Below, one piece after another: positions 7,214 to 35,402 of a stretch of 64,000 nt of DNA (position 1 is the stretch's first letter; each line of letters begins with the position of its first letter). The notes beneath the pieces are model-generated. The model was not told the DNA's origin and made no database searches. It worked only from the letters and a program-made list of their open reading frames with translations. The position numbers were made by a program, and so were the translations under genes. This DNA is from Nitratireductor soli (GTDB lineage: Bacteria; Pseudomonadota; Alphaproteobacteria; Rhizobiales; Rhizobiaceae), in the NCBI RefSeq assembly GCF_001050155.1, contig NZ_LFVY01000004.1, positions 124,001 through 188,000 of the forward strand, in the 5' to 3' direction.

Positions 7214-7243
7214 AAAGCCCGGGCTACTGGAGAAGCGCAGGCC

Positions 7244-7396: not shown

Positions 7397-7648
7397 TTGC
7401 TTGCTGTCCGACGATCTAGGGGCAGACCGAAGACCACACATCCTTGTCGTCAAGGTGTCCGGTCGGCTCGGCACTCCATGCACGTTACGCAAAGCTGCAA
7501 CAACAATTGGGCGACAAAAACTCATGCGGCCAGATTTTCAGCGACTTGACCGAAACGAGCGGCGAATCACCGATAGCCACGCGGCAACCCTAGCCGATCG
7601 GCCAGCCGCCGTGAATAGCGGCCCCGGACAGGTACCTGGGGTTACCAT

Positions 7649-9969: not shown

Positions 9970-9984
9970 AGAATGGCGTTGCGT

Positions 9985-11655: not shown

Positions 11656-12099
11656 ATCTGCCCCGCTCTATCTCTTCGTTCTTCCGCATTTATGCGGACG
11701 CCAGGTGATTCCACCTGACTGCAGAATGCTTTAGCGCTCGCTCGCGCCTCGTTTCGGCGTCCGTTTCGGCCTGGGTCGGACATGCAGCAGGAAAGAAGAC
11801 GCGCTGCGGTTTCTATGGAAAATCCCCGGATAATGTAGCAAGTCAACGCGCGTGACCGAAACTGGCCGAATTGAATAGAAGAAGCGTCTTGCTAATGTTT
11901 TTGGCCATCGCGAGGTAGGCGCCACATCACCCGCGTAGATCATTGGCTTATTTGAAATCATCATGGTTGCGGCATAGGCTCGAAGAACAAGAAAGAAAGC
12001 GTTCCGGTGGTCTCGGCGTGTTCCTTGGCAAAAGCCGATGGGCACGCCGCTTTTCCGCCCGAGGGCTTTCTTTCACCGGGGCAAATCGGGAAACGGGCA
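11656..12099. promoter_or_regulatory. Divergent intergenic region between GMC oxidoreductase and DegT genes
   Basis: About 440 bp without a convincing gene. It contains a short direct repeat of GTTTCGG around 11752-11770 and an A/T-richer stretch at about 11860-11960. A GTG-initiated in-frame extension of the DegT gene starts at 12007. The region presumably carries promoters for both divergent genes. I see no clear operator. Confidence 0.35.
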
Positions 12100-13278: not shown

Positions 13279-14080
13279 ACCCGTCGGCATCGGCTCCACC
13301 ATCATCGACATCTGGCAATGGCCGCTCGACGTTGCCGCCGATGCGCTGCCCGGTCTCGTCGCTGCGTTGAGCGATGCCGAATTCGCCCGCGCCGCCCGTT
13401 TCGTGCGTGAGCGCGACCGGCTGCGCTTCATCGCCGGGCGCGGCCATCTGCGGGCCATTCTCGGCGCGTATCTGGCGGTGCCGGCAAAGCGGCTCGCCTT
13501 CGACTACAACGCCTTCGGCAAGCCGCGCCTGGCGGGCGCCGGCGAACTGCCGCTGCATTTCAATCTCAGCCACAGCGCCGGTGTCGCGGTGCTGGCGGTC
13601 TGCGATCACTATCAGATCGGCATCGACATCGAGCAGGTGGCGCCGTTCAAGGAGGATCTGGCCGGGACCTTCTTTTCAGCCGCTGAGCGCCGCGCGCTGC
13701 GCTGCGTTCCACCCAAAGCCTATCTCGACGCCTTCTACCGTTGCTGGACGCGCAAGGAGGCATTCGTCAAGGCGCATGGCGCGGGCTTGTCGCTGCCGCT
13801 CGATTCGTTCGATGTGTCGATCGGCGCAACCGGCCAGCCGCGTCTGCTGCGGCTGGACGGCATGCCGGACGCACCGGAGCAATGGTGCCTCCTCAACCTT
13901 GCCACGCCGCGCGGTTTCATCGGCGCGGTCGCCGCCCTGACGGCCGGCAATGCGGTTTCGCTGCGCTATCGAACCGGTGAAATTGCCGTCCCCCGCCGCG
14001 CCGCCATGCCGGCACCCGAGGCAGCGATCCTGGCGCGGAATGGGCGGCCCGCACACCAGTCGTTCGCGGTCGGAAACTGA
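13268..14080 (+). CDS. Sfp-type 4'-phosphopantetheinyl transferase
   Basis: Protein of 270 aa, the size of Sfp/EntD-type enzymes. NLSHS is at 99-103, the Mg-binding GIDIE at 118-122, and WTRKEAFVKAHGAGL starts at W160 with K163, E164 and K168; together these are the three diagnostic motifs. Role: converts apo carrier domains to holo form by transferring phosphopantetheine from CoA to a serine. There are four carrier domains in the neighbouring minus-strand operon (serines in DLGGTS, LGFDSL, LGADSL and LGGHSL), and this enzyme is the obvious activator. The start codon overlaps the DegT gene end. It converges on the NRPS operon with 15 bp between stops. Confidence 0.92.
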   Translation: MRHRPVGIGSTIIDIWQWPLDVAADALPGLVAALSDAEFARAARFVRERDRLRFIAGRGHLRAILGAYLAVPAKRLAFDYNAFGKPRLAGAGELPLHFNLSHSAGVAVLAVCDHYQIGIDIEQVAPFKEDLAGTFFSAAERRALRCVPPKAYLDAFYRCWTRKEAFVKAHGAGLSLPLDSFDVSIGATGQPRLLRLDGMPDAPEQWCLLNLATPRGFIGAVAALTAGNAVSLRYRTGEIAVPRRAAMPAPEAAILARNGRPAHQSFAVGN

Positions 14081-14095
14081 GACAAGCGCCGGGCA

Positions 14096-15721
14096 CTACG
14101 CATTGAGGCGGGCGTCGAGGATGTAGCGCGTGCCGCTGGCATCGAAATGGTGGCAGCCGATGAGGCCGGGCTTGAAATCCGGAACAATCCGCCGCACGCA
14201 GGTCTCGCGATAGGCATCCCGGTCGAGTTGCTCGATTTCCATGATGTTCAGGCCATAGCCGTAAATGCCATACGCATTGTTCTGGGACGGGCGGAACAGC
14301 CGCCTGTGGCGGGCGAAGACCCGCCCGGCATTGCGCGCCGTGGCGCTGCCGATGACGATGGGGTTGCGCCGGTGCGCGGTGATCGACGACAATTTCGGTC
14401 CATCGACCTCGAATGCATAGAGCGCCGAGCAATGGTCCTCGAAAGCGTGGTGTTCCGACAGATTCGAAAACAGCCACCACGTGCCCTTGTGGCGAAACAG
14501 CGTGCTGTCGGCGGCCGAGCAGCCTTCGAGCGCGCTGGAATAAGGTTCCCAGACCAGCGGAAAGCTGACCGCGCGCCAGATCTCGATACGCTTTCTCTGA
14601 TGCGTTTCCGGCATCATGAAAATCGCGCCGTCATGGCTGAAGACGAAGGGAAACGACAGGTGGTTGTCGCCACCGAGCGCGATGCCGATCGGCTCCAGCC
14701 CGTCACGCGTCAAGCGGCCGACGGCGATGTGCGCCTTGCTGTCGCCGATCCCGTAATTCTCATAGAAAACATAGGTTTCGCCCTCATGCCTGAACAGGAA
14801 CGGGTCGGCCTTGATCGAGGTTTTCGAGGGGGGGATTTCCACCGCTTGACGGGGGTCGAAATCGTCGATCGCTCCGCGCCCGCTGTAGAGGGTCCAGACG
14901 GCCGTCTCGCTGTGCGCGCGGCGGCGCAAGGCCTTTGCCGCAAGGGCCAGCGATCCGTGGGCGAGCTTCACCGCATAGGCGGCGGTTTCGCCGATGGTCG
15001 GGCAGGCGGGGGCCGACGCCTTGGGCAGCCGGACCAGGGCGGGGCCGAACTGACGCGTGTCGGCCAGGCGGCCAAGCTCGCGCATTGCCAGAAGAACCGA
15101 TTTCTCCTGAATGAAGGCTGCGTTGCGCGCGGCGCTGAATTTCATGTTGAACGCCGCTTCGGCAATCCGCATCGGCTGCCGCCCTTTTCCCTGCTCGACG
15201 GTCAGGCCCAGGCGACTTTCAGGCGCGTTGGCCAGCGTGTCGTCGATGCCCGTCCAGTTGGCGCGCGGCGATTGGGCTTCGACGTGGCTGAGCGTCCAGA
15301 CGCCGAACGGCAGGCCGGAGATGATGTCTTCCGGCAGGCCGGCCGGCACATGGCGCAGGACGAGATCCAGGCCGAGGGCTGCAACCGGCTCCGGCGAGCG
15401 GTCAAGGGCAAGGACCGGGATCGCCTTGCGAGCCCGGGCAAAACGCGCGGCGCGATAGGGTTTCTGTCGGGCGAACAAGGCCCGGTCGAGACGTGAAACC
15501 CAGCCGGCGATAATGCTCGAGCGCTGATCGGCGAAAGGGTCCGGATGAACCAGGAAGCCGGCCAGCAAAAAACGCGGATCGGCCAGAATCCTGTCGAACA
15601 GTTGCAGTTCCCAATTCTCGAAACGCCGGCCGGCCCCCGTCAGGATGCCGATCCTCAGGGGGGCTGGCCGGTCATGCGTTGACGCGGAGCGCTTGGCGGA
15701 CGATTTCTGCTCATTCCTCAC
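14096..15721 (-). CDS. Formyltransferase-fold plus beta-propeller protein (GINT1_N-like)
   Basis: Protein of 541 aa using the GTG at 15721, which overlaps the end of the NRPS gene by 11 bp; further upstream the frame is a shadow of that gene. The N-terminal 1-220 looks like a formyltransferase Rossmann fold (LRIGILTGAG; LDLVLRHVPAGLPEDIISGLPFGVW). The catalytic Asn-x-His reads LSH and no GxDxG aspartate is evident, so formyl transfer is doubtful. Residues about 270-530 carry repeated DPFLFRHEGETYVFYENY / GAIFMMPETH / STLFRHKGTWWLFSN blades, resembling the five-bladed domain of the glucosamine inositolphosphorylceramide transferase family and of GH43-like propellers. Such proteins occur in bacterial glycan clusters. 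Its coupling to the NRPS makes a role in tailoring or conjugating that product possible. Precise function unknown. Confidence 0.6.
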   Translation of the reverse strand: MRNEQKSSAKRSASTHDRPAPLRIGILTGAGRRFENWELQLFDRILADPRFLLAGFLVHPDPFADQRSSIIAGWVSRLDRALFARQKPYRAARFARARKAIPVLALDRSPEPVAALGLDLVLRHVPAGLPEDIISGLPFGVWTLSHVEAQSPRANWTGIDDTLANAPESRLGLTVEQGKGRQPMRIAEAAFNMKFSAARNAAFIQEKSVLLAMRELGRLADTRQFGPALVRLPKASAPACPTIGETAAYAVKLAHGSLALAAKALRRRAHSETAVWTLYSGRGAIDDFDPRQAVEIPPSKTSIKADPFLFRHEGETYVFYENYGIGDSKAHIAVGRLTRDGLEPIGIALGGDNHLSFPFVFSHDGAIFMMPETHQRKRIEIWRAVSFPLVWEPYSSALEGCSAADSTLFRHKGTWWLFSNLSEHHAFEDHCSALYAFEVDGPKLSSITAHRRNPIVIGSATARNAGRVFARHRRLFRPSQNNAYGIYGYGLNIMEIEQLDRDAYRETCVRRIVPDFKPGLIGCHHFDASGTRYILDARLNA

Positions 15722-18497
15722 GGCGCGCTCCCGTGTGCAGGCGATCCGACAGGACGCCCGACAAGCTTTCGATACCCGCCTGGGTGAGGGAATCCTCGTG
15801 CCAGCCGGCAAGATCGAACACCGGCGCATCGTCGGGAATGAAACCGCGCCAGCCGAACAAAAGGTTTCTGGCGCGCTTGTTGGTCGCTTGGCTCCTGAAC
15901 AGGAGCACGGTTTCGGCGTTGATCGGCCGGGGCCGATAGCGGCGTGCTGCGGCAACCAGGAAATCCGTGACATCCGCAGTGGCCTGTTCCTCGGTGTTCA
16001 TGGCGTTGCCGCCGCTGAACCGCTCGAGCAGTTTCAGCGTCACGTTGAACTCCTTCAGATAGGTGATCGGCCGCATGCGCCCGCCAAGCAGCTTGCCGGT
16101 GAAATAGGCAAGCCGCTTGACGCGCTTCTCCGTGTTCCAGCGCCAGCGGGTGAAGCGCGACTGCGAGGCGACATAGCCAGGCGCCCAACTGTCGATCAGG
16201 GCGACGAACTGGATCCGATGCCCGAGGCAATGCAATTGCCGTGTCATCTCCATCGCCAGGATGCCGTTGACGCATAGCCCGATCAGCGCGATCGACTGGG
16301 GTCCGTCGGCAAGCTTCATGCAGGCGATCGCGTTGCCGGCGATCTGTTCCAGCGAAAGCTCGCGCATCGCCGGGTCGATGCTGGCGTTGAGCATGTTGAG
16401 ATTGACTGCCGAGATCTCCTGGGGAAGCAGGCGCGCCATGCGGTAGTAGAGAAACGGATGATTGAGCGTGTAGAGGGCGCAACTGCCGTCGCCCTGCTGG
16501 TAGACGGAGATGTCCCAGGCGGGGGCTTGCCGCGCATTCGTTTCCGCCATCGCCGCGGCAGGGATTTGCGGTTCCTCAAGCGTTTGCTCAGCCTCACCGA
16601 AGACCGCGCGGGCAAACCCCGCAAGCGTCGGCGCCTCGAACAGAAGTGCCAGGTCCGGCTTCACGCCGAAGGTCGCTTTCACAGCCGCCAGCATGCGCAA
16701 CGCCAGCAGCGAGTGACCGCCCAGCGCGAAGAAATCATCGCCCGCGCCGACCGCGTCAATGCCCAGAACATCCGCCCAGATGCGGCCGAGCTGGCGCTCT
16801 CTTTCCGGGATGGACTGCCGCGCGCCTGTTTCCGCGTTGGCGGGGCGCGGGGCGGGGGTCGGCTGAACGCCGGGCTCCGGCAGCGCCAACAGCACGCTGA
16901 TGCCGGATGGCATGTCGGCTGCCGCCAGATGGCCGGCGAGATAGGCCATCAGCCGCGCCGGCAGCGCTTCAAGCGCGCCGGCGGTTGTCGGCGAGGGCGT
17001 GACGAAGGCGTAGGGCTGCCCGCCATCGATGGGTTGCTGCAACGCCGCCGCGGCCACGTCCTCGTGCCCGGTCAGCAACGTCTCCAGCCGTGACGCGCCG
17101 CGCGGGCCGTTCGCCGGCGGTGCCGGCGCGCGCACCGGACCCCGTATGGAAGCGATCTTCGCATCGGCATCGTCCAGCATGAGCGTGTAGGTCGCGCACC
17201 ACAAATCCAGCAATTCCTGCGCCGTCCGCGCGTCGAACAAATCGGTGTTGTACTCGATCGACATGCGCCAGCCGCTCGGCCGGCCGATCATGATGAAGTT
17301 GAGATCGTAGATCACGCCCGGCGATTGCGATGGCGCGCTGATCAGTTCGAAACCGCCGTAATGCGCGTTCTCGAGGAACGCCTTCTGCTGGTTGAAATTC
17401 ACCGAGACGAGCGGGTTGCGCGAAGGGTCGCGGGCCGGATTGACCAGTTCCACCAGATTGTTGAACGGCATCTTCTGATGATTGAGCGCATCGGCCACCG
17501 TCGCGCTGACCCGGGCGAGGTGCTGGGCGAAGGTCAGGTTCTCGGGAAAGTCGAAACGCAGCACCAGATTGTTGATGAACACGCCGATCAGGCTCTCCAG
17601 ATCGACATCCTCGCGTCCGGCGATCTGCGTGCCGAACAGGACTTCGCGCGCGGCGCAATAGTGATGCAGGGCCGCACTGATGACCGCCGCGCCGTAGCTG
17701 AACAGCGAGACCTGATGGGCGCGCGCCGCCGCGTCGATGCGCTCGCCGAAGGAGAGCGGCATCACGGCGGAGAGGATTTCGCCATGGCTGGTTTTCGCCT
17801 GCCCGCGCGGCCGGTCGGGGCGGACTTCGAAATAGGGCGCGTCAGCCAATTGCGCGCGCCAATAGGTTTTCTCCGTCTCGAAACCGTAGCTGTTGCGGTA
17901 TTCATCCTGCCACAGGGCGAAATCGCCATATTGCAGCGCCAGCTCCGGCAATTCGGGCGCGCGCTGTGCGTCGATCGCGGCGGCGATCTCGCCGACCTCG
18001 CGGCCCAGAACCCGGATCGACCAGCCGTCGAAGCAGGATTGATGCGCCGTGATGAGGATGAAACCGCGCTGGTTTTCGACCATCAGGAAGGTGACGCGGA
18101 ACAGGCCGGGCTCTCCCAGGTCGAAGGGGGCTGCGGCCGTTTCCTTGCTGATCGACTGGACGCGCGCGTCGCGCTGGTCGGCCGGCACATGCCGAAGGTC
18201 GATCACCGGCATCTTGAAATCGACGGTTTCGACGACCTGTTGCCGTGGCCGGCCGTGCACATCGACGAGGCCCGTCCGCAGGATCTCATGACGGTCGATC
18301 ACGCGCCGAAAGGCGGCTTCGATGCTCCCGGTCTTGAATGCGCCGCGGATTTCCCAGCGCACCGCCACGTTGAGCGCCGGATTTCCCGGGTTCAACTGGT
18401 CGAGGAACCAGCAGCGCAGCTGTGTCTGTGTGCAGGGAAACTCGGCGACGACTGCGCGCCCGGCATGTGGGTGCGTGTGTTGATCGGTTTCGCTCAT
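15711..18497 (-). CDS. NRPS termination protein: C - (A remnant) - PCP - TE
   Basis: Protein of 928 aa. The condensation domain spans about 15-450, but the catalytic motif is HQSCFDG at 152-158, so the second His of HHxxxDG is Gln. Residues about 455-550 (LETLLTGHEDVAAAAL, GGQPYAFVTPSP, LMAYLAGHLAAADMPSG, LLALPEPG) read like a worn C-terminal sub-domain of an adenylation domain; the large A core is absent. A carrier domain follows with S596 in ALGGHSLLAL, then a type I thioesterase with GLCVNG (nucleophile C742 rather than Ser), D769 and H900 as the probable triad. The start overlaps the stop of the preceding 2,659-residue protein (ATGA). Likely role: receive the chain from the glycine carrier and release it, by hydrolysis, cyclisation or capture of an amine. 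Whether the C domain condenses anything is open. Confidence 0.88.
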   Translation of the reverse strand: MSETDQHTHPHAGRAVVAEFPCTQTQLRCWFLDQLNPGNPALNVAVRWEIRGAFKTGSIEAAFRRVIDRHEILRTGLVDVHGRPRQQVVETVDFKMPVIDLRHVPADQRDARVQSISKETAAAPFDLGEPGLFRVTFLMVENQRGFILITAHQSCFDGWSIRVLGREVGEIAAAIDAQRAPELPELALQYGDFALWQDEYRNSYGFETEKTYWRAQLADAPYFEVRPDRPRGQAKTSHGEILSAVMPLSFGERIDAAARAHQVSLFSYGAAVISAALHHYCAAREVLFGTQIAGREDVDLESLIGVFINNLVLRFDFPENLTFAQHLARVSATVADALNHQKMPFNNLVELVNPARDPSRNPLVSVNFNQQKAFLENAHYGGFELISAPSQSPGVIYDLNFIMIGRPSGWRMSIEYNTDLFDARTAQELLDLWCATYTLMLDDADAKIASIRGPVRAPAPPANGPRGASRLETLLTGHEDVAAAALQQPIDGGQPYAFVTPSPTTAGALEALPARLMAYLAGHLAAADMPSGISVLLALPEPGVQPTPAPRPANAETGARQSIPERERQLGRIWADVLGIDAVGAGDDFFALGGHSLLALRMLAAVKATFGVKPDLALLFEAPTLAGFARAVFGEAEQTLEEPQIPAAAMAETNARQAPAWDISVYQQGDGSCALYTLNHPFLYYRMARLLPQEISAVNLNMLNASIDPAMRELSLEQIAGNAIACMKLADGPQSIALIGLCVNGILAMEMTRQLHCLGHRIQFVALIDSWAPGYVASQSRFTRWRWNTEKRVKRLAYFTGKLLGGRMRPITYLKEFNVTLKLLERFSGGNAMNTEEQATADVTDFLVAAARRYRPRPINAETVLLFRSQATNKRARNLLFGWRGFIPDDAPVFDLAGWHEDSLTQAGIESLSGVLSDRLHTGARREE

Positions 18498-21400
18498 CGC
18501 CCAGCCCCTGCGACCCGCCGCGCGCCATTGCGATAATCCTTCAGCGACGGCACATGCGGCATGGTTCCGTTGGCCGAAGACACGCTCTCAGCCTCGGCGC
18601 AAATCGCCAGTTCGCCGATGGTCGGATGGCGCAGCAGATGCTTGGCCTCCAGCGGCACGCCGGCATCCATCATGCGCGCGGCAATGCGGAAGATGCTGAG
18701 CGAATCCGCGCCGAGCGCGTAGAGATTGTCCTCGATGCCGATCTCGCCGATCTCCAGCACCTCGCTCCAGATGTTCGACAACTTCTTCTCCATCGGCGTG
18801 CGCGGCTGCACGCGGATGGGGGCGGCCGCCTGCCGCCTTGGCAACCCGAGCGCCTCCAGGGCCTTGCGATCCAGCTTGCCGTTCGCCGTCTGCGGCAGCT
18901 CTTTTGCCTCGAGCCAGAACCCCGGCACCATATGGGTCGGCAAATGCGCCTTGGCATGTGTCGTCAACCGTTCGGCTGAAGGCGGCTCATCCAGCTTTTC
19001 GGCCACGAAATGACACACCAGCTGGCGGTCGCCATTCGTGTTGCGCGCGGCCACCACCGCGCATTGGCGCACACCCTCGGCCTTGCCGATGACGGTTTCG
19101 ATCTCGCCCAGTTCGATGCGGAAGCCGCGCAGCTTGATCTGATTGTCACGGCGGCCGAGCAGTTGCAGCGAGCCGTCCGGCAAGCGCCGCCCGACATCAC
19201 CGGTGCGGTACAGCCGCTGCGGCACGCCGGCGATGTTGACATTGCGGAAGGCCGCCCGGGTCTGCTCGCGGTTTTCGAAGTAGCCGACCGCCAGCCCTTC
19301 GCCGCCAATGTTGAGTTCGCCGATCACGCCGACAGGGGCGATCCTGTCCTGGCCGTCGAGAATGAAGAGCTGCGTGTTGGCGATCGGATGACCGATGGTG
19401 ATCGGCGCTTGCGCATCGTCGATGCGCGCCAGTGAGGACCAGATGGTGGTCTCGGTCGGCCCGTACATGTTCCACAATTCGTCGCCGATGCCGATCAGCG
19501 TCCTGGCCAATTCGCCAGGCAAGGGTTCACCGCCGCACAGCATTTTCAGTTGCGGCTGATTTTCAAGGCCTGCCTCCACCAGCATCTGCCAGAGCGTCGG
19601 CGTTGCCTGGAGAATGGTCGCCTGGCTGCGTTTCAGGAGATCGACCAGCGCGAACCCGTCGCGCACCTGGGCGCCGTCGGCGATGACCACCTTGCCGCCC
19701 GTGATCAGCGGCAGGTAGAGTTCCAGGCCGGCGATGTCGAACGAGATGGTGGTGACGGCGATCAGCGTATCCTCGGCGGTGAAGCCGGGTTCGCGCGCCA
19801 TCGAGGTCAGGAAGTTGACCAGCGCACGATGCGGCACCTCGACACCCTTCGGCACGCCGGTCGAGCCGGAGGTGAAGATGATGTAGGCGGCAGACGCCGC
19901 GTGGCGCGTGCGCCGTTCCAGCGGCGTCGGGCTTTGCGCTGCGATTGCCGCTTCTTCCGTATCGAGGCGGATCGTCACCGCATCCGCGCCGGCCAGTGCG
20001 GCGATCCGGTCGCTGGCGCAGACAACGGCGGAAATGCGCGCGGCCTCCATGGTCTGCCGCAGGCGGGCTTCGGGATGCTCGGGATCGAGCGGCACATAGA
20101 TGTGCCCGGATTTCATGATCGCCAGAAGCGTCACCAGCATGTCGATGGAGCGGTCGAGCGCCACCGCCACGCGGCGTCCGGGAATGAACACTTTCTCGTG
20201 GATCAGATGGGCAAGCTGCCAGCTCCGCGCGTCCAGTTCGGCATAGGTGATGGAAGCGTCGCCATGCTGCGCCGCGATGGCGTCGGGCCGCTCGGCCACG
20301 CGCTCGGCGAACAGGTCGTAGACGAGACGCTCCTGATCGAATTCGGCTTCCGTCGCGTTCACCTGATGGACGAGCCAATCCGTCTCGTCCTGCGAGAGGA
20401 GCGGCAGCGTGCCGATCCTCGCCGTCATATGATCGGCGATGGCCGAGGCGAGCGTGCGGAAATGACCGAGCCAGCGCTCGATGGTCTGCCGGTCGAAGAC
20501 ATCGCCATTGTAATCGACGTCGATCCGGATGCCGTCCTCGCTCTCGATCATGTTGAGGAACATGTCGAAATTGGAGAAGGCCTTTGGGTTCGGCGTCACA
20601 CGTGCTTCAAGCCCGCCGAAATCGAGGTTCTTCGCCATCCGCTCGAGGTTGAACTGGATTTCCGTCAGCGGCAGGCGGCTCGGGTCGCGCTTGACGCCGA
20701 GTTTCCGCACCAGCGTGCCATAGGTGTAGTCCTGGTGTTCGAACGCCTTGAGGACCAGTTGCTGCGTCTGGCGCAGATGCGCATCGAAGGACTGGTTGTC
20801 GTCGACCGCATGGCGCAGGGGCAGCAGGTTGACGCAATGGCCGACGAGGTTCTGCCCGTCGAGCAGGCTTTGCCCCGCCGACGGCACGGCGACGACGATG
20901 TCGTCGCTTGCCGAAAGGCGGGCGATCATCACCTGCAAGGCGGCAAGCAGGGTCGAGAACATCGTCGCACCGCCCTTCGCCCCGGCCTTCTTCAGGCGCT
21001 TGTAAGTGTCCTTGTCGATGGACGCGGTGACGGTGCCGCCGGAAAAGCTGCGCCGTTCGGGCCTCGGCCGGTCGGTCGGCAAGTCGGCGAGGTCCGGCAG
21101 GGTTGCGAACTGGCCGAGCCAGAAGGCCTCCGTCTCACCGGTTGCTCCGGTCGTGCCGGCACGCTCCCGTGCGTAGGCGGCGAAGGAAAGCGCCGGCTGA
21201 AGGTCGGGCTGTTCGCCTTTAAGCAGTGCGACATAGGCGGCCGCCAATTCCTCGACGATGACATTGACGGACCAGCCGTCGCAGACGATGTGATGCGCCG
21301 TGAAGACCAGCACGTGCCGGTCGGCGGCAAGCCGCGCCATCTGCGCGCGCACCAGCGGTCCGTTGACCAGATCGAAGGGCGTGCGGGCTTCCTCGGCGGC

Positions 21401-24400
21401 GATGTGTTCGATTTCCGCGTCTGCGGAAACATCGCGCAGCGGGAGATCGACGGTGAAGTCGGGGATGATGTCGAACCGGTCCCCGGCGCGCGAAAAGCGG
21501 ATGTGGAGCGCATCGTGACGGGCAATCACCAGGGCGAAGGCGCGCCGAAAGGCGGCTTCGTCGAGAGGGCCGTCGAGCGCCAGGTTGAAGGATTCGTTGA
21601 ACGCGCAGGAAGCCTCGTCGCCGGCTTGCGCGGCCAGCCAGATTTCCGTCTGCGCTTCCGTCAGCGGCGCCGATGCGGGAGCCGGCTCCGCCCCGGCCGC
21701 GGCGGCGACCGGAACCGGATGCGCGGGGGCAAGAATGCCGGCCCCCTGCAGCGCGTCCAGGCTGTTTGCGAAGACCGCGGCAATGCGCTCGAAATCCTCT
21801 TCCGAATGCTGCGTCGTCAGGAAGCAGGGATAGCCGTCCTGCACATGCAGGCCCTGCAGGCGCGCATGGGGATAAAACAGCGCGCCAAGCGGATCGGCGC
21901 TGCCGAAATCGGTGACGAACCAGCTCTTGTAGCCATGGATCGGGCTCGCGATGCCGCGCCGCGCCAACTCGTCGTTGAGGCTGCCGACGAGCTGTTCTGT
22001 GCGCGCGGCGACACGGTCGTAAAGCGCCTGGCCCTCGCCCTTGATGTGTTCCAGCACGGCCTTGGTGGCGGCGAGCACGATCGGGTGGCGCACGAAGGTG
22101 CCGGCGAAGAAGGTTGGCGCGACCATCGGCACGCTGTCGTCGCCATAGGACCAGCCGCCGCCGTCCAGCGCATCCATGAACCGGCTGTCGCCGGCCAGCA
22201 CGCCGATCGGCATGCCGCCGCCCAGCACCTTGCCGTAGGTCGCCAGATCGCCCGTGATGCCCCAGATGGCCTGCATGCCGCCCGGATGGACACGGAAGCC
22301 CGTCACCACCTCGTCGAAGACCAGGGCGAATTCGCCCTGCGTGGCGATGGCGCGCAATTCGCGGACGAAGTCCACAGGGCGCAATTCGGGGTGCCGGCTC
22401 TGCACCGGCTCGATGATGACGGCGGCGATGTCGTCGGCATTGGCGCGGATCCAGTCGAGGCTTTCGGGCGCACCGTAGCTCAGCACCGTCATGTTGGAGA
22501 CCGAGCCTGGCGGAATGCCGGCGGCGATCGGCAGCGCGGCATGGGCGCCCGAGCGGCTGCGGCCCTTCACCAGCACCTCGTCGAACTGGCCGTGATAATC
22601 ATTGCCGAACACCACCACCCGCTCGCGTCCGGTGACGGCGCGGGCAACCCGCATGGCGGCCATCACGGCTTCCGAACCGGTGTTGCAGAAGGTGACGCGC
22701 TGGTGGCCGGTCAATTCGCTGACGAGGTCCGCCACATCGCCGGCCAGCGGCGTCTGCGGGCCGATGGCGAAGCCGCTATTGGCCTGGGCAATGATCGCCT
22801 CGACGACGAAGTCCGGCGCATGGCCGAAGGCTGTCTGGCCCATGCCGTTGACCAGATCGATATATTCATTGCCGTCGACGTCCCAGATGCGCGCGCCCTT
22901 CGAACGGTCGGAGACGACGGGGAAGACCATTTCCTTCCACTCGGCCCGGAAGCCGGAAGCCGCGCGCGGATCGGCCAGACGCGGCCGATGGGTTTCGGTG
23001 AACGCCTTGGATTTTGCGTTCTTCGCTTCGTAACGCGCGATCAGATCGGCGATGAAGGCGCGTTTCTCCCGCGTGATCTCGTGATCGGCATGCTGCGCGC
23101 CGGGCTTGTAGAGGCGGATGCGCTCGCCGCCGATTTCCTTTTCCTGATCGCCGGCGGGAGGCGTCGCGATGGGTGGTGTCGGCGCCGCGGCCACAACTCC
23201 CGCCTGCATTGGCGCGGCGGGTACGCCGCCCAGCGATTGGATGGTCTGCATCTGCTGGGCGAAGAGCTGCTGCGCCATCTGCAATTGCGACTGGAACAGC
23301 GCCTCTATTCCGGCGGGCGCTGTGGTGGGTCCATTCGTCATTGTCGATGGCGCAGCAAGCGCGGCGACCGGCGTGGGGGGCGGGGGCGTCGCCGGGGTTT
23401 CTGGCGCCGGCTGCACGGCATCGGCCGGCAGTTCGGCATCCAGATGCCGCGCAAGGGCTTGTATGGTCGGGATGTTGCTCAAAAGCTCGCGGAAGGAGAG
23501 CTTGACCTTGTATTCCTTCTCCACCTTTTGCGCGAACTGGCCGATGAACAGGGAATCGAAGCCCAGTTCGAGAAACGTCGCGCCGCCGGCGTCGTCAGGC
23601 AGTTCCTCGCCGGACAGATCGGCAAGCAGGGCGGTAAGGGCAGCTTCCAGCCTGGCGGGCCGGTCGGCAGCGGGGAAGGCGGGTGTGGCTGTCATGATGA
23701 CGGGTCCGTTTGTCGGGGTTGTCGGCAATGCGACGGCAGCCTGCGCAACCGTTGCAGCGTTCGCCTGGCGAAGCGGCTTCGGCGCGTCGATCCAGTGCAG
23801 TTGCCGTTGGAAAGGGTAGGTCGGCAGGGCGACGGTCCGCCGCGCCTCCGCCGGCAGGTCCGGCCAGTCGAACCGGCAACCGGCGATCCAGAGCCGAGCG
23901 TGGGCCTCGGCGAACACTTCTTGCGCCAGCCCGGCGCGGTCGTGTTCGGGCAGGGACTGGACGATTGCAGCCAGCGCCTCGCGTTTGAGTGTTTGCGCGC
24001 AAAACACCGACAGGGTTCGGCCGGGGCCGGTTTCCAGAAGGACAGGCTTGCTGCCCTGGCAGGCTGTGGACAACCCGCCGGCAAAGCGCACCGCATCGCG
24101 ACAGTGCCGCGCCCAGTAGGCGGGCGCAGCCCCTTGTTCGTCGGTCTGCCAGTCGCCGGTGACGCAGGAAATATAGGGGATCGTCGCCGGGTGGTAGGTG
24201 ACCCGCGACGTCTCGTCTTCCAGGAGCCGCGCCGCCTCGTCCATCATCGCTGAATGGAAGGCGTGCGAGGTGTGCAGGCGGCTATAGGCGACCCCGGCGG
24301 CATCGAGTGCCGCGCAGGTGGCGTCCATCGCCTCGAACGGGCCGGAAATAACGGACAGTTTGGGCGCGTTGATCGCGGCGATTTCCACGCCGTCGCAGAG

Positions 24401-26473
24401 GTGAAGCGCAACCGTCGCTGCGTCTGCGCGCACCGAGACCATGGCGCCCTTGGGTTGCTCCTGCATCAGCCGGCCACGCGCCGCCACCAGCTTCATCCCG
24501 TCCTCGAACGACATCACGCCGGAAAGTGCGGCGGCAACGAACTCGCCGACGCTGTGGCCGATCATCGCTGCCGGTTTGAGGCCCCGGCTCATCCAGAGGC
24601 GCGCCGTTGCGTACTCGACCAGAAACAGCGCCGGCTGGGCAATTTTCGTGTCGCGCAATGCCTCGGCGAGTTTCTCGTCGGGGCCGCCTTCACGGCGGAT
24701 GAAATCGCGCAGGTCGGCATCGATCAGCGGTTTGGCGAGTTCGGCGCCCTGGTCGATCCAGCGGGCGAATTCCGGCTCGGCGGCATGGAGCGCGCCGCCC
24801 ATGCCGACATATTGCGCGCCCTGGCCGGGAAACAGGAAGATGACCGGCGGCGGCGTTTCCTCGGCCCGGCCCGATATCGGCCGTTCGCTCGTCAGGCCGG
24901 TGATCGCCTCCTCGCGGCTTCGCGCGACGACCGCCGAACGCTGTAGGAAATCATGCCGGCCGGCTTGCAGCGTGTGCGCGACCGATGAGAGCGGTGCTGC
25001 GCCATTGCGCAATGCAGCGCCCAGGTTTTCGCGCATGGCGGTGAGCGCCGCTTCGTTGCGCGCCGACAAGGGCAGGATATGCACCGCGTTGCCATCATCC
25101 TCGGCAAGCGGGGCGGCGGGCGGGGCTTCCTCCAGCACCAGGTGCACATTCGTTCCGCCGACGCCGAACGAGCTGACGCCGGCGCGGCGCGGCGTTCCAT
25201 CCGTGTTCCAGTCGCTGAGCTGACGCGGAATGCTGAACGGGCTGTCGTCGAGGTCGATGTGCGGGTTCGGTGCGACGAAATTCGCCACGGGCGGAATCTG
25301 CCGGTGGCGCAGCACCAGCGCGGCCTTGATCAGCCCGGCGACGCCCGCGGCGGCGTCCAGATGACCAAAATTTCCCTTCACCGAGCCGAGCGCGCAAAAA
25401 CCCTTGTCCGCCACCGCGCCGAACGCCTTGGTCAGGCCGCTGAATTCGATCGGATCGCCAAGCGGTGTCGCCGTGCCATGGCATTCGACATAGCCGATCG
25501 TCGCCGGATCGATGCCGGCGCTGGCATGCGCCGCGGCAATGGCTTCGGACTGGCCTGAAACGCTTGGCGCGGTGTAGCCGACCTTGTCGGCGCCGTCATT
25601 GTTGACGCCATAGCCGCGGATGACGGCGTGGATCATGTCGCCGTCGCCGAGCACGTCTTCGAGCCGCTTGAGCAGCACAACGCCCGCCCCGCTGCCGAAC
25701 ACCGTGCCTGCCGCATCGGCGTCGAACGGCCGGCAGAATCCATCCGGCGAGACCATCCCGCCTTCCTGGTAGAGATAGCCGCGCTTTTGCGGAAAGGTGA
25801 TCGACACGCCGCCGGCCAGCGCCATGTCGCAGCCATAGGTCAAGAGGGTCTGGCAGGCTTGCGTGACGGCCAGCGCCGAGGTCGAGCAGGCCGACTGGAT
25901 GGTGAAGGCGGGACCGCGCAGGTTCAGCTTGTAGGCGACCCGCGTCGCCAGTGTGTCGTTGACCGAGCCGATCAGCTCCGAGAACATGCCGACCTGGTAG
26001 TTTGAGGTGAACTGCTCCACCTTGACCCGGTCGGACAGCACATTGTTGATCAGGTAGGTGCCCATCGCCGAACCGGCGAAGACGCCGATCGATGCCGGCG
26101 CGCGGAAGGGATCGCAGCCGGCGCCTTCCAGCGCTTCCCAGCATATCTCCAGAAACAACCGGAACTGGGGATCGATGAGCGCGGCCTCGCGCGGATACAT
26201 GCCGAAGAACTCGGCATCGAACAGGCCGACATCGTCGAGATGCGGCCGCGCCGCCACATAATCCTTCGACGCGCGCACCGCATCCTCGAAGGCATCGTCG
26301 ATTTCATCCGGCTGAAACCGGCGAAAGGCATGCCGTCCCTCGCGGATCATCTCCCAGAGTTCGTCTACGGAAGCCGCGCCGGGAAAACGGCCGGCCATGC
26401 CGATGATGGCAATGCTGCCGATCCCTTCGTCCAGGGCATCGGTCGCATCGTCGGGTCGCGCTTGCTCGGTCAT
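18494..26473 (-). CDS. Hybrid PKS-NRPS: KS - AT - ACP - aminotransferase - C - A(Gly-like) - PCP
   Basis: Protein of 2,659 aa from the ATG at 26473, overlapping the upstream stop. KS is at about 20-450 (C196 in QSACSTS, H332 in ECHGTA, H371 in NFGH). AT is at about 540-850 (S641 in GHSVGE; HAFHS at 737-741, malonyl-type). ACP is at about 935-1015 (S974 in LGFDSL). A Gln/Pro/Ala-rich linker follows. The class III aminotransferase is at about 1120-1570 (VFDEVVTGFR, K1415 in TYGKVLGGG). C is at about 1602-2030 (HHIVCDG, H1728). A is at about 2050-2540 (TSGSTGVPKG). PCP is at about 2555-2625 (S2591). No KR, DH, ER or epimerase is present. A-domain pocket residues by alignment with GrsA are D2246, I2247, L2250, Q2289, L2312, G2314, M2336, I2344, W2345 and K2533, one change from the recalled glycine code DILQLGLIWK. 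The order AT-ACP-AMT-C matches the beta-amino-acid-forming part of mycosubtilin/iturin synthases. Confidence 0.93.
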   Translation of the reverse strand: MTEQARPDDATDALDEGIGSIAIIGMAGRFPGAASVDELWEMIREGRHAFRRFQPDEIDDAFEDAVRASKDYVAARPHLDDVGLFDAEFFGMYPREAALIDPQFRLFLEICWEALEGAGCDPFRAPASIGVFAGSAMGTYLINNVLSDRVKVEQFTSNYQVGMFSELIGSVNDTLATRVAYKLNLRGPAFTIQSACSTSALAVTQACQTLLTYGCDMALAGGVSITFPQKRGYLYQEGGMVSPDGFCRPFDADAAGTVFGSGAGVVLLKRLEDVLGDGDMIHAVIRGYGVNNDGADKVGYTAPSVSGQSEAIAAAHASAGIDPATIGYVECHGTATPLGDPIEFSGLTKAFGAVADKGFCALGSVKGNFGHLDAAAGVAGLIKAALVLRHRQIPPVANFVAPNPHIDLDDSPFSIPRQLSDWNTDGTPRRAGVSSFGVGGTNVHLVLEEAPPAAPLAEDDGNAVHILPLSARNEAALTAMRENLGAALRNGAAPLSSVAHTLQAGRHDFLQRSAVVARSREEAITGLTSERPISGRAEETPPPVIFLFPGQGAQYVGMGGALHAAEPEFARWIDQGAELAKPLIDADLRDFIRREGGPDEKLAEALRDTKIAQPALFLVEYATARLWMSRGLKPAAMIGHSVGEFVAAALSGVMSFEDGMKLVAARGRLMQEQPKGAMVSVRADAATVALHLCDGVEIAAINAPKLSVISGPFEAMDATCAALDAAGVAYSRLHTSHAFHSAMMDEAARLLEDETSRVTYHPATIPYISCVTGDWQTDEQGAAPAYWARHCRDAVRFAGGLSTACQGSKPVLLETGPGRTLSVFCAQTLKREALAAIVQSLPEHDRAGLAQEVFAEAHARLWIAGCRFDWPDLPAEARRTVALPTYPFQRQLHWIDAPKPLRQANAATVAQAAVALPTTPTNGPVIMTATPAFPAADRPARLEAALTALLADLSGEELPDDAGGATFLELGFDSLFIGQFAQKVEKEYKVKLSFRELLSNIPTIQALARHLDAELPADAVQPAPETPATPPPPTPVAALAAPSTMTNGPTTAPAGIEALFQSQLQMAQQLFAQQMQTIQSLGGVPAAPMQAGVVAAAPTPPIATPPAGDQEKEIGGERIRLYKPGAQHADHEITREKRAFIADLIARYEAKNAKSKAFTETHRPRLADPRAASGFRAEWKEMVFPVVSDRSKGARIWDVDGNEYIDLVNGMGQTAFGHAPDFVVEAIIAQANSGFAIGPQTPLAGDVADLVSELTGHQRVTFCNTGSEAVMAAMRVARAVTGRERVVVFGNDYHGQFDEVLVKGRSRSGAHAALPIAAGIPPGSVSNMTVLSYGAPESLDWIRANADDIAAVIIEPVQSRHPELRPVDFVRELRAIATQGEFALVFDEVVTGFRVHPGGMQAIWGITGDLATYGKVLGGGMPIGVLAGDSRFMDALDGGGWSYGDDSVPMVAPTFFAGTFVRHPIVLAATKAVLEHIKGEGQALYDRVAARTEQLVGSLNDELARRGIASPIHGYKSWFVTDFGSADPLGALFYPHARLQGLHVQDGYPCFLTTQHSEEDFERIAAVFANSLDALQGAGILAPAHPVPVAAAAGAEPAPASAPLTEAQTEIWLAAQAGDEASCAFNESFNLALDGPLDEAAFRRAFALVIARHDALHIRFSRAGDRFDIIPDFTVDLPLRDVSADAEIEHIAAEEARTPFDLVNGPLVRAQMARLAADRHVLVFTAHHIVCDGWSVNVIVEELAAAYVALLKGEQPDLQPALSFAAYARERAGTTGATGETEAFWLGQFATLPDLADLPTDRPRPERRSFSGGTVTASIDKDTYKRLKKAGAKGGATMFSTLLAALQVMIARLSASDDIVVAVPSAGQSLLDGQNLVGHCVNLLPLRHAVDDNQSFDAHLRQTQQLVLKAFEHQDYTYGTLVRKLGVKRDPSRLPLTEIQFNLERMAKNLDFGGLEARVTPNPKAFSNFDMFLNMIESEDGIRIDVDYNGDVFDRQTIERWLGHFRTLASAIADHMTARIGTLPLLSQDETDWLVHQVNATEAEFDQERLVYDLFAERVAERPDAIAAQHGDASITYAELDARSWQLAHLIHEKVFIPGRRVAVALDRSIDMLVTLLAIMKSGHIYVPLDPEHPEARLRQTMEAARISAVVCASDRIAALAGADAVTIRLDTEEAAIAAQSPTPLERRTRHAASAAYIIFTSGSTGVPKGVEVPHRALVNFLTSMAREPGFTAEDTLIAVTTISFDIAGLELYLPLITGGKVVIADGAQVRDGFALVDLLKRSQATILQATPTLWQMLVEAGLENQPQLKMLCGGEPLPGELARTLIGIGDELWNMYGPTETTIWSSLARIDDAQAPITIGHPIANTQLFILDGQDRIAPVGVIGELNIGGEGLAVGYFENREQTRAAFRNVNIAGVPQRLYRTGDVGRRLPDGSLQLLGRRDNQIKLRGFRIELGEIETVIGKAEGVRQCAVVAARNTNGDRQLVCHFVAEKLDEPPSAERLTTHAKAHLPTHMVPGFWLEAKELPQTANGKLDRKALEALGLPRRQAAAPIRVQPRTPMEKKLSNIWSEVLEIGEIGIEDNLYALGADSLSIFRIAARMMDAGVPLEAKHLLRHPTIGELAICAEAESVSSANGTMPHVPSLKDYRNGARRVAGAGR

Positions 26474-28422
26474 CGCTGGCTCCGACGCAACTGGCTCATC
26501 CGCTTTCTTTGCATTTCGGCGCGCATACGGATGGCAGGCGCGGCAACCGTGTCGCCCGCTCTGGCGTCGAGAAAGCGCGCCAGGCTGCCGATGTTGGGAT
26601 GCTCGAACACGGCGACCACGTCGATTGCGCGGCCAAGCGCTTGTTCCAGCGCCGCATGGATGCGCATCAACTGCATCGACGTACCGCCGAGATCGAAGAA
26701 ATTCTGCTCCGCCCCGATGTCCTTCGCGCCAAGGACCTGTTCCCACAGCCCGGCGATGATCGCCACGGTTCCTTGCGCCCGTTCCGGTGCCTTGGCGGGG
26801 GAGGAGATGTCGGGCAGGGTGAGACGTGAACGATCCACCTTGCCGGCGGGATTCATTGGGAACGTGTCGAGGACGATCGCCTTGCTTGGAATCATATGCG
26901 CTGGAAGAACGGCTTTCAGGCTTGCCAGAACGGCCGCCGCAAACGGCAGTTCGCCGTCCAGGGCGGGCGCCTGCGGCTTGAGGAAAGCAACGATCCGCTT
27001 GGCGCTGCCGGACTGATGGCATTGGACGACGGCATCGGAAAGGCGCCCGTCGCGCCGCAGCGCCGCTTCGATCTCGTCCAGCTCGATGCGCTTGCCGTCG
27101 ATCTTGATCTGCCGGTCGCGGCGGCCCTTGAAGCGCAGCAGGCCATTCTCATCCATCACCGCGACGTCGCCGGTGAGATAGCAACGCATCGCTTCTCCCG
27201 CCGACGTGCGGATCGTCACGAAGCGTTCGGCCGTCAGTTCGGGCCGGTTCAGGTAGCCGATGGCGAGGCCGTCGCCGGAAACGGCTAGCTGCCCCTCGAC
27301 GCCGGCCGGCAGTTCTGCCAGCCCATCGTCGAGGATGTGGACGCGGCTGTGGGCGATGGAATGGCCGATCGGCATGTCAGCATCGGCGAAATCCGTTGAG
27401 ACCGCGAAGGCCGAGGCCATCACCGTGACTTCGGTCGGGCCGTAGGCGTTGGTCAGGATGCAGCCCGGATGCGTTCTGAGAAAGCGTTTCGCATGATCGA
27501 CGGACGCCACCTCGCCACCAAACAGGACATGCCGCAGCGAGGACAGCCGCGGCCCGTGATGGTCGACGAGGAGATGAAACAGCCCGGTGGTGAGCAGCAT
27601 GACCGAGACGGAATTGTCGGCGATCACCTGCGTGATGCGCGGCAGCGAAAGCGTGCGCTCGCCAATGCCCACCAGCCGGCATCCATTGAGCAGCGCGCCC
27701 CAGATTTCGAAGGTGGCGGCATCGAAGGAGATCGTCGCCGTGTGCAGCACGACGTCGTCCGGGTGAAAGTGGATGTAGTTCTGCGCCCGTACCAGGCGCA
27801 CAATGCCGCGATGCGGAATGACGACGCCCTTCGGGCGGCCGGTCGAGCCGGACGTGTACATGATGTAGGCCGCATCGCCGCCATCGGTGGCAATGTCGGG
27901 CGCCGGCGCGTCCACATCCGGCAGAGCGGCAAGCGCGGCATCGAGATCCACCTGGCGGCAATGATCGGTGGCCGCCGGCGGCAGGATATCCGCGTTGCCG
28001 CGCTCGGTCAGGATGACACGCGGCGCGCAATCGCCGATCATGTAGGCAAGATGCTCGGCCGGATAGGCGGGATCGAAGGGCGCGTAGGCCGCGCCTGCCT
28101 TGAGGATCGCCAGCTTGGCGATCAGGGTCTTCAGCGCTCGTGGCAGCAACAGGCCGACAATATCGCCTTTCACCACGCCGAGCCGCATCAGCTCATGCGC
28201 CAGGAGCGATGACTGCCGGTCGAGCTCGCCATAGGTGAGACGGAGATCGTCGAACTGGATGGCGATGGCGTCCGGCTGTTCGAGCGCCATCTGCGCAACG
28301 ATGCCGTGTAGCGTTGCGTTGCGATCGTAACCTCTGGGTGCTTTCTGGGGCGCTTCGGTGCCGGAGAGGTGACGTGGTGATGGTTCACTCGAAAAGTCCG
28401 ACTGCCGCTGCGTCCTGTTCAT
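26470..28422 (-). CDS. NRPS loading protein: A(Leu-like) - PCP
   Basis: Protein of 650 aa from the ATG at 28422; a GTG at 28545 would add 41 residues, and neither start has a strong binding site. The adenylation domain shows YIMYTSGSTGRPKGVV, NAYGPTEVTV, YLTGDVA, FKGRRDRQIKIDGKRIE and the catalytic lysine in NPAGKVDR. A carrier follows with DLGGTSMQLMRIH (Ser of GGTS). There is no condensation domain, so this is the starter module. Pocket residues aligned with GrsA read D-A-F-L-L-G-A-V-M-K, which matches 8 of 10 positions of the leucine code DAWLYGAVMK as I recall it; leucine or another branched residue is the best guess. The basic C-terminal tail (MQRKRMSQLRRSQR) could be a docking segment for the KS of the next protein, whose start overlaps by 4 bp. 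Confidence 0.88.
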   Translation of the reverse strand: MNRTQRQSDFSSEPSPRHLSGTEAPQKAPRGYDRNATLHGIVAQMALEQPDAIAIQFDDLRLTYGELDRQSSLLAHELMRLGVVKGDIVGLLLPRALKTLIAKLAILKAGAAYAPFDPAYPAEHLAYMIGDCAPRVILTERGNADILPPAATDHCRQVDLDAALAALPDVDAPAPDIATDGGDAAYIMYTSGSTGRPKGVVIPHRGIVRLVRAQNYIHFHPDDVVLHTATISFDAATFEIWGALLNGCRLVGIGERTLSLPRITQVIADNSVSVMLLTTGLFHLLVDHHGPRLSSLRHVLFGGEVASVDHAKRFLRTHPGCILTNAYGPTEVTVMASAFAVSTDFADADMPIGHSIAHSRVHILDDGLAELPAGVEGQLAVSGDGLAIGYLNRPELTAERFVTIRTSAGEAMRCYLTGDVAVMDENGLLRFKGRRDRQIKIDGKRIELDEIEAALRRDGRLSDAVVQCHQSGSAKRIVAFLKPQAPALDGELPFAAAVLASLKAVLPAHMIPSKAIVLDTFPMNPAGKVDRSRLTLPDISSPAKAPERAQGTVAIIAGLWEQVLGAKDIGAEQNFFDLGGTSMQLMRIHAALEQALGRAIDVVAVFEHPNIGSLARFLDARAGDTVAAPAIRMRAEMQRKRMSQLRRSQR

Positions 28423-28709: not shown

Positions 28710-29525
28710 TCAGTCGAGGCGGTAGGCGCGCACGTAATCGACGAACATGTGGGACGGGTCCGGCGCCTCTTCCTTCGTCGCGCCATCGACCAGCGCCAGG
28801 TTGAGAAGAATGTAGAGCGGTTGCCGGTGTTCCGGCTGCGTCTCGGTTTTCCAGACGAAGGCGCGGTTGAAATAGATGCGGATCCAGTCGCGGTCGACCC
28901 TGACGCCGTAGGTGTGAAACTCGCCGGGCTTGGCCGCTTCGGAGCCCGTGCCGAACACCTCGTTGCGGTTGTACTGCGACGTGTGCCGCCCATCGCGATG
29001 CCACACATGCACGACCGAGGAGTATCCGCCCGGCTTGTCGCCGTAATACTCGAGAACATCGATCTCGGCGGTCGCCTTGGAGCGGTCTTTGCCGATCAGC
29101 CAGAATGCCGGCCACACGCCCGGCCCCTCGGGGAGGCGCGCGCGCATCTCGAAGTATCCATATTGCTGGGCAAACCCATCGCCCTTCGGGTCGACCGAGG
29201 CAAGCAGGCCGGATTGCCATTCGCCCTCCTTGTCGCGCCGCGCCTCGATGCGCAGCACACCGTCCTCGACACGGAACGGGAAGCCCTCGTGCGGGTTGGC
29301 GAAGCGCGCGCCGCCAAAATCCCCCGACCAGGGCGTGTGGGCGATCCAGCGCGTGCCCGGCCCCCAGGCGGAGACGTCGAGCGTGGTGAAATCCTCGTCG
29401 AAGGAGAGCGACATCTGCTCGAGATTGAGCCGGTCCTGCGGTGCTTCCGCGGCCTTTGGCGGGCTGAGCGCGGTCAGAAGAAAAAGGGCGGCAAGAGTAA
29501 TGCCAGCCGCGACGATGCGGCGCAT
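28710..29525 (-). CDS. Secreted glycoside hydrolase family 16
   Basis: Protein of 271 aa from the ATG at 29525, which begins a signal peptide (MRRIVAAGITLAALFLLTAL, cleavage near AAEA). The beta-jelly-roll of GH16 is recognisable from YGYFEMRARLPEGPGVWPAFW and from the catalytic EIDVLE motif, E154, D156 and E159 (nucleophile and acid/base glutamates). The end has FVDYVRAYRL. Family role: endo-cleavage of beta-1,3/1,4-glucans or galactans. In rhizobia ExoK/ExsH-type GH16 enzymes trim succinoglycan. Being among exopolysaccharide genes, it most likely shortens the nascent polymer outside the cell. It diverges from the Wzy-like gene. Confidence 0.88.
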   Translation of the reverse strand: MRRIVAAGITLAALFLLTALSPPKAAEAPQDRLNLEQMSLSFDEDFTTLDVSAWGPGTRWIAHTPWSGDFGGARFANPHEGFPFRVEDGVLRIEARRDKEGEWQSGLLASVDPKGDGFAQQYGYFEMRARLPEGPGVWPAFWLIGKDRSKATAEIDVLEYYGDKPGGYSSVVHVWHRDGRHTSQYNRNEVFGTGSEAAKPGEFHTYGVRVDRDWIRIYFNRAFVWKTETQPEHRQPLYILLNLALVDGATKEEAPDPSHMFVDYVRAYRLD

Positions 29526-33067: not shown

Positions 33068-33076
33068 CCTTCCCAC

Positions 33077-33970: not shown

Positions 33971-34004
33971 GATGTTTTCCCCCGGCTTGTGTTTGCGCAG
34001 TCTT

Positions 34005-34322: not shown

Positions 34323-34341
34323 CTCGGTTCCTCTTCCATTC

Positions 34342-34923: not shown

Positions 34924-34978
34924 CTGCCTGGCCTTTTCCTCTGCCGTACTGGTCTCGGGTTCAATCACCCCGGTTCAC

Positions 34979-35341: not shown

Positions 35342-35402
35342 TGCGACCTCCCTGATTGCGGAAGGGCGTGGGTGCCCTCCCGCGCGCTTGTCTGCAGCGG
35401 GT

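Follow-up and report, generated by a model that had tools for sequence, protein, structure and literature searches.

A hybrid assembly line in a Wzx/Wzy exopolysaccharide locus of Nitratireductor soli and its possible role in polymer decoration

In this study we analyzed a stretch of 64,000 nucleotides from Nitratireductor soli (contig NZ_LFVY01000004.1, positions 124,001 to 188,000; hereafter the window, numbered from its first letter), which carries a compact operon for a hybrid nonribosomal peptide synthetase/polyketide synthase (NRPS/PKS) assembly line. The three assembly-line proteins, which we call NrpA, NrpB and NrpC, are encoded inside a Wzx/Wzy exopolysaccharide locus that flanks the operon on both sides (window 515-32363), a setting missed in the initial annotation of this DNA. 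We consider the chances about even that the assembly line is a dedicated side branch of the exopolysaccharide pathway, in which a cysteine-type thioesterase would transfer a beta,gamma-diaminoacyl-glycine onto an amine in the repeat unit of the polysaccharide. The early chemistry and the polysaccharide setting are described below, followed by the unusual terminal module, which bears on how the chain might leave the enzymes.

The operon and its exopolysaccharide setting

The four overlapping minus-strand genes of the initial annotation were recovered as open frames at 26470-28422 (or 28545), 18494-26473, 15711-18497 and 14096-15721, whose neighbors overlap by 4, 4 and 11 nt with the chosen starts. 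The proposed domain order also held: Pfam gave an adenylation (A) domain and a peptidyl carrier protein (PCP) for the first protein; a ketosynthase (KS), an acyltransferase (AT), two carriers, a class III aminotransferase (AMT), a condensation (C) domain and an A domain for the second; and C, PCP and thioesterase (TE) domains for the third. The convergent activator was likewise confirmed as an Sfp-type phosphopantetheinyl transferase (PPTase; 13268-14080, plus strand). The C domains of NrpB and NrpC are the only two condensation domains found in the genome (5.1 Mb, 99.48% complete). The operon is composed as follows (ACP, acyl carrier protein; GH, glycoside hydrolase family):

26470-28422, minus: NrpA, A-PCP loading protein (Pfam AMP-binding and PP-binding; start ATG 28422 or GTG 28545)
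18494-26473, minus: NrpB, KS-AT-ACP-AMT-C-A-PCP, 2659 aa (Pfam, active-site residues; 4-nt overlap with nrpA)
25277-26416, minus: KS domain of NrpB (Pfam ketoacyl-synt)
23918-24841, minus: AT domain of NrpB (Pfam; malonyl-type motifs GHSVG/HAFH)
21794-23026, minus: AMT domain of NrpB (query stretch), MycA-like aminotransferase (best PDB match 6kfm, MycA)
20372-21670, minus: C domain of NrpB (Pfam; HHxxxDG intact)
18875-20311, minus: A domain of NrpB, A2 (glycine-type code DILQLGMIW(K), near-invariant among orthologues)
15711-18497, minus: NrpC, C-(A remnant)-PCP-TE with a modified C domain and a TE cysteine (Pfam, alignment)
17148-18443, minus: C domain of NrpC, HQSCFDG instead of HHxxxDG (alignment)
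16818-17144, minus: remnant of the A-domain C-terminal subdomain in NrpC (profile; weak in the window, 9 bits)
15714-16526, minus: thioesterase-fold domain of NrpC (nucleophile elbow GLCVNG with Cys742; Asp769, His900)
14096-15721, minus: GINT1_N/GH43-type beta-propeller protein (Pfam, Foldseek; N-terminal third without assignment)

On both sides of the operon lie an initiating transferase, a flippase, a polymerase, a co-polymerase and an export protein, as expected of a Wzx/Wzy locus, the Wzy match being below the Pfam cut-off. The flanking genes (GT, glycosyltransferase family; identified by domain scan unless stated otherwise) are:

515-1756, plus: Wza-like polysaccharide export protein
1781-4135, plus: Wzz/Wzc-type co-polymerase
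4122-5033, plus: GT2-like glycosyltransferase (20.8 bits, under the cut-off of 23.3)
5042-6364, plus: GT4 glycosyltransferase
6512-7213, plus: initiating sugar transferase (Bac_transf), open frame (domain within 6785-7213)
7652-9163, plus: Wzx-type flippase
9313-9969, plus: TIGR04325 methyltransferase
9985-11631, minus: GMC oxidoreductase
12145-13278, plus: DegT sugar-type aminotransferase (closest solved relative the Kdo C8 transaminase, 5k8b)
13268-14080, plus: Sfp-type PPTase (Pfam; 11-nt overlap with the DegT gene)
28710-29525, minus: GH16 glycanase
29743-31152, plus: Wzy/O-antigen ligase-like polymerase (Wzy_C 27.4 bits, under the cut-off of 31.7)
31149-32363, plus: polysaccharide pyruvyl transferase

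The two gene sets are physically coupled at the DegT-PPTase junction, where the distance between the genes was -14 to +9 nt in 48 of the 49 loci having both (the other one gave no value); the script took the PPTase start closest to the DegT stop, which favors short values.

A locus scan with one genome per species yielded at least 78 loci, at least 67 of them orthologues (L034-L100), and the closest named relative was Nitratireductor pacificus. The remaining 11 loci (L101-L111) were excluded because tblastn pointed to other NRPS; one of these, from a metagenome-assembled genome of Phycisphaeraceae (L101), has two large open frames at 7157-18102 that match NrpA at 40% and a third of NrpB at 45%, and is a distant relative. 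Of the 67 orthologous loci, which belong to Hyphomicrobiales and Rhodobacterales, 63 had polysaccharide synthesis or export genes, either within the flanks that were fetched or elsewhere on the contig. The fetched flanks themselves held a homologue of a window polysaccharide gene in 48 loci (in 44 of them a Wzx) and GH16 alone in three more (L043, L052 and L085); as a GH16 match alone was counted as weak, the flank count is 51/67 if it is accepted and 48/67 if not. In L043 a Wzy homologue lies on the same contig (G005:C30). The same is true for 14 of the 16 loci lacking flank matches, at 32-60% identity and with the contigs paired by their lengths, and the loci outside the 63 are two with only a GH16 gene and two on contigs of 9.1 and 8.5 kb (L049 and L058, respectively). 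In the stretches neighboring five of the six loci with a weak Wzy match (L120-L123, L125), we found crp, luxR and wzy in all five, a sugar transferase and GT2 in four, and wzx with the methyltransferase in three.

Moreover, four plasmid loci (L003, L005, L020 and L021, GMC missing in the last) and six Nitratireductor congeners show the same gene order as the window, except that five of the congeners have no methyltransferase. All eight plasmid loci that were fetched, out of 20 plasmid matches listed, are in a polysaccharide setting, and so are the more distant loci of genomes G482 and G627. Among nine other congeners, NrpC and Wzy occurred together in eight and were both missing from one.

Chain assembly and the terminal module

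The residues needed for catalysis are kept throughout NrpB. In the alignment of rows longer than 2500 aa (window plus 63 of the 67 loci; L049, L058, L083 and L093 left out), the Cys/His/His of the KS, the AMT lysine, both carrier serines and the malonyl-type AT motifs GHSVG and HAFH were found in 64/64 rows, and in the HHxxxDG motif of the C domain the second His and the Asp were present in all rows and the first His in 63. No ketoreductase (KR) domain was seen among the Pfam matches of the assembly line. The AMT domain matched best, among PDB entries, the aminotransferase domain of mycosubtilin synthetase MycA (6kfm; 393 bits over 408 residues), followed at a distance by the glutamate-1-semialdehyde aminomutase family (best 179 bits). 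Beta-amination by this domain is supported by its homology to MycA, and the logic initially suggested for the operon, an aminotransferase acting after a PKS module, agrees with a MycA-family AMT placed between ACP and C, a malonyl-type AT and the lack of a KR.

The specificity pockets of the two A domains evolve very differently. Read with GrsA anchors, they gave the same codes as the initial annotation, DAFLLGAVM(K) for A1 of NrpA and DILQLGMIW(K) for A2 of NrpB. The A2 code, close to the glycine code DILQLGLIWK, was identical in 61 of 64 rows and deviated at one position in the remaining three (four codes in total). The A1 pocket displayed 25 codes in 62 rows, including DALFLGAVF (12 rows), DAFLLGAVM (7, the window among them) and DAVNIGVCI (6); NrpA rows were of 450-900 aa (window plus 63 of the 67 loci, without L058, L092, L099 and L100), and L049 and L083 were removed from the pocket counts, being A2 domains of cut contigs. 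Across the 61 shared rows, mean pairwise identity was 99% in the A2 pocket versus 70% in the domain core, and 58% in both pocket and core of A1; hence, glycine appears fixed while the starter drifts. The window code DAFLLGAVM is presumably Leu-like, and NrpA probably loads Leu or another aliphatic amino acid in the window lineage. Since the A1 pocket varies so much, the leucine starter proposed initially is plausible for that lineage at most and does not characterize the family as a whole. All 62 rows keep the Asp that binds the amino group in this pocket, which makes an alpha-keto acid starter unlikely; such a starter has been proposed for floridanemamide (PMC13252402).

The order of the first two proteins is supported by natural fusions: NrpA is followed by NrpB in one frame in the Rhodobacterales loci L092, L099 and L100, and in Rhodobacter CZR27 and Jannaschia M317 a single long gene matches both NrpA and part of NrpB (L058 and L083 were not counted, because their contigs are cut and the apparent NrpA match is the A2 domain). 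Given these fusions, the MycA-type AMT and the near-fixed glycine pocket, the initially proposed chain up to a carrier-bound aminoacyl-malonate-amine-glycine gains support, and loading, malonate extension, beta-amination and glycine addition are well supported as predicted steps. An amino-acid-fed AMT-PKS was regarded as unusual in the initial annotation; the enzymes are of known kinds, and this combination has a precedent in Pseudanabaena, where OA858_07105 is predicted to be a C-A(Val)-PCP-PKS-PCP-aminotransferase protein (PMC11356792).

The third protein departs from this regular picture. In 65 of 67 NrpC rows (700-1200 aa; window plus 66 of the 67 loci, L083 left out), HQxxxDG stands in place of HHxxxDG; HH was found in L060 and L093, in G482 and G627, and in plasmid loci of Rhodobacter and Loktanella, so that loss of the second His is usual but not universal. 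The remnant of an A domain noted initially is real across the family: against an A-subdomain profile, 26 of 29 long C-PCP linkers exceeded 15 bits versus 0 of 145 shuffled ones, although the window linker reached only 9 bits; in 38/67 rows the stretch is gone altogether. With HQ in 65/67 rows and an A domain reduced or deleted, NrpC is not a canonical C-A-PCP elongation module. Its C domain is among the best conserved parts, and the PCP3 serine is kept in 67/67 rows.

In the TE domain, Cys replaces Ser at the nucleophile elbow in 67/67 rows and also in L083, G482 and G627, and an Asp follows 27 residues after the Cys in 65/67 rows. The fifth position of the elbow is Asn (59 rows) or His (7 rows), not the Gly of GxCxG; the excluded L083 reads HQACFDG and GICVHG at the two motifs. 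The TE His is present in 57/67 rows; of the ten without it, three are truncated and seven are the Rhodobacterales rows (L090, L092, L093, L095, L096, L099 and L100), which keep the Cys within the elbow GxCVHG. In these seven, either another His serves or the domain functions without a classical triad. The predicted model of the window domain (mean predicted local distance difference test score, pLDDT, 87; predicted template modeling score, pTM, 0.85) is an alpha/beta hydrolase, and its closest solved relative, both by sequence (4.1e-18) and by Foldseek of the model, is the TE of AB3403 (4zxh).

Fate of the carrier-bound chain

We propose the following route. The PPTase encoded at 13268 would charge the carriers, NrpA would load a hydrophobic amino acid (Leu-like in the window), and NrpB would add malonate, with its MycA-type AMT turning the beta-ketone into an amine before its C-A-PCP portion adds glycine to give a 3,4-diaminoacyl-glycyl thioester. 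NrpC, which no longer has amino-acid activation of its own and in most members lacks the second His of its C domain, may then take over the finished chain from NrpB, and its cysteine thioesterase may form an acyl-S-enzyme from which an amine acceptor releases the chain; this acceptor would most likely be an amino sugar of the polymer repeat unit or a lipid-linked repeat unit. Where the GMC oxidase and DegT aminotransferase are present, the acceptor amine may come from this pair. The decorated unit would finally pass through Wzx, Wzy, Wzc and Wza to yield a cationic or zwitterionic polymer. We infer the transfer to an amine from the setting, from the coupling of the DegT and PPTase genes, from the nature of the terminal module and from the lack of any other acyltransferase among the polysaccharide genes scanned in the window; chain transfer to NrpC, the acyl-Cys intermediate and amine attack are proposed steps, and attachment to the polymer, suggested by genomic context, is in our estimate evenly balanced. 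The data suggest that the product may decorate a polymer rather than be a free antibiotic. In its widest form, namely that the assembly line is an obligate part of the exopolysaccharide pathway in rhizobia and Rhodobacterales, with lineage-specific starters and a cysteine thioesterase grafting the chain onto the repeat unit to give positively charged polymers, the proposal is more tentative, and we would put it somewhat below an even chance.

Several observations weigh against this proposal. The TE His is absent in 7/7 Rhodobacterales rows of the alignment, and the cysteine thioesterases of SulM and ObiF use their Cys for ring closure and not for transfer to another molecule. In six of the 14 loci with a more remote Wzy, the match is weak (32-34% identity), and G482, a genome with NrpC, has only a 30% Wzy match. 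Related polymerases also exist without the assembly line, since among 199 family genomes a strong Wzy homologue (E<=1e-60) occurs in 11 and NrpC in five, with only four of the 11 carrying both. A polysaccharide locus of this kind also occurs without the assembly line in genome G493, where the propeller gene is accompanied by wza, wzc, GT2, GT4, sugar transferase, wzx and wzy. DegT was not seen in 18/67 loci and GMC in 22/67, some flanks being short; because both are missing in part of the loci, the acceptor amine cannot always come from them, and an obligatory DegT/GMC-made amino sugar was rejected as a general rule. In the window itself, the DegT protein, nearest to the Kdo C8 transaminase, and the GMC oxidase look like a pair that oxidizes and then aminates a sugar hydroxyl.

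The strongest competing reading, to which we assign roughly one chance in three, is that the product is a small molecule, free or ring-closed. It would be either linear 3,4-diaminoacyl-glycine or a lactam formed by the cysteine thioesterase, merely co-regulated with the exopolysaccharide, for instance as a matrix signal or surface-active compound. The cysteine thioesterases of SulM (8w2c) and ObiF are described as closing beta-lactam and beta-lactone rings via an acyl-S-enzyme (PMC11298585, PMC6668435), the diaminoacyl-glycyl thioester holds two internal amines, and the TE fold is ordinary, AB3403 being nearest; however, the scanned genes at 515-32363 include no small-molecule exporter, loci of two orders retain the polysaccharide setting, and the aminotransferase and PPTase genes are coupled. 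For the free diamino-acyl-glycine of the initial annotation, the chemistry up to the carrier-bound chain is supported, but the idea leaves out the exopolysaccharide locus and the odd terminal module. Compatible with either fate, though improbable in our view, is that NrpC acts as a true third elongation module, receiving an amino acid on its carrier in trans from NrpA, NrpB or a further A domain, in which case the product would be longer by one residue at release. The invariant PCP3 serine and the well-conserved C domain fit such a role, and some members may condense, as HH is kept in L060, L093, L004, L018, L127 and L129; the HQ motif of nearly all other rows and the frequent deletion of the A remnant speak against it.

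The association could, finally, be a neighborhood accident, with an ordinary biosynthetic gene cluster hitch-hiking in a polysaccharide island. Its spread is indeed patchy (5/199 family and 2/385 class genomes, the N. soli genome counted in both, and the other class match covering the C domain only), and plasmid-borne relatives exist. Yet Nitratireductor, Rhizobium and Ensifer share the interleaved gene order, mostly with 50-70% protein identity, and polysaccharide genes were retained after rearrangement in four of the five stretches of the L055/L060/L088/L089/L091 group, which leaves this reading already disfavored and, to our mind, very improbable.

Known systems, neighboring genes and significance

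The assembly line resembles mycosubtilin synthetase MycA in its closely homologous AMT, and MycA likewise has a PKS module without KR, then AMT, then C-A-PCP. MycA starts from a fatty acid; unlike its fatty-acyl (FAAL) starter unit, the A-PCP of NrpA supplies an amino acid and would thereby give a beta,gamma-diamine. The order KS-AT-(CM)-ACP-AMT-C-A-PCP is shared with McyE of the microcystin/nodularin pair McyE/NdaF. To our knowledge, and with no search aimed at it, synthetases of the McyE/NdaF or Pseudanabaena type have not been reported in polysaccharide loci. AB3403, an Acinetobacter terminal NRPS module, also has a G-x-C elbow but, unlike NrpC, comprises four domains, one of them an A domain. 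SulM and ObiF parallel our proposal in that a Cys acyl-S-enzyme is resolved by a nucleophile other than water. The surrounding genes are like those of rhizobial Wzx/Wzy loci, with Wza-, Wzc-, Wzx- and Wzy-like proteins, an initiating transferase, glycosyltransferases, a pyruvyl transferase and a GH16 glycanase; unlike these, the window locus includes a complete hybrid assembly line together with its PPTase. None of the matches listed in the open-licence PubMed Central literature described exopolysaccharide loci that have a hybrid assembly line as a stable component, which is weak evidence of absence, and the locus is unmentioned in the passages available on NRPS/PKS of Pseudovibrio, Acetobacteraceae and Rhizobium sp. 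11515TR.

The fourth gene of the operon, initially described as a formyltransferase-fold/propeller protein, gave matches for the propeller but no support for the formyltransferase fold. GINT1_N matched in 33/33 members scanned (window included) and GH43 in 29/33; no formyltransferase matched at E<=1 in any of these members, and none appeared among the PDB sequence matches or the 50 best Foldseek matches, so that a sugar N-formyltransferase encoded at 14096 was rejected. Since a homologue (40% identity, 96% coverage) is present in the G493 locus, which lacks the assembly line, and no match was found in the Rhodobacterales loci, the propeller gene seems to accompany the polymer rather than the NRPS. 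In place of the assembly line, the G493 locus (L132-L133) carries an AMP-forming ligase and an asparagine-synthase-type protein, which can be read as an alternative acyl activation in the same kind of locus; an ABC transporter with HlyD protein and a GH-like protein are also present.

Downstream of the pyruvyl transferase, IalB, CsgG and curlin-repeat genes (window 32453-36251, minus strand) separate it from crp. In five congener stretches (L025, L026, L028, L031 and L033) the pyruvyl transferase gene adjoins crp, and no IalB, CsgG or curlin homologue matched; the window appears to have gained a curli-type amyloid operon by insertion within its polysaccharide locus. The segment at 36001-40000, which adjoins the curli genes and two regulators, has a G+C content of 57%, versus 62-67% elsewhere in the window.

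If the proposed transfer is correct, the role of assembly-line enzymes would extend beyond free natural products to the decoration of a surface polymer, in genera to which legume symbionts belong, and NrpC would provide an example of a thioesterase transferring peptides to sugars. The outcome would be a genetically variable cationic polysaccharide, with likely effects on attachment, biofilm formation and host recognition.

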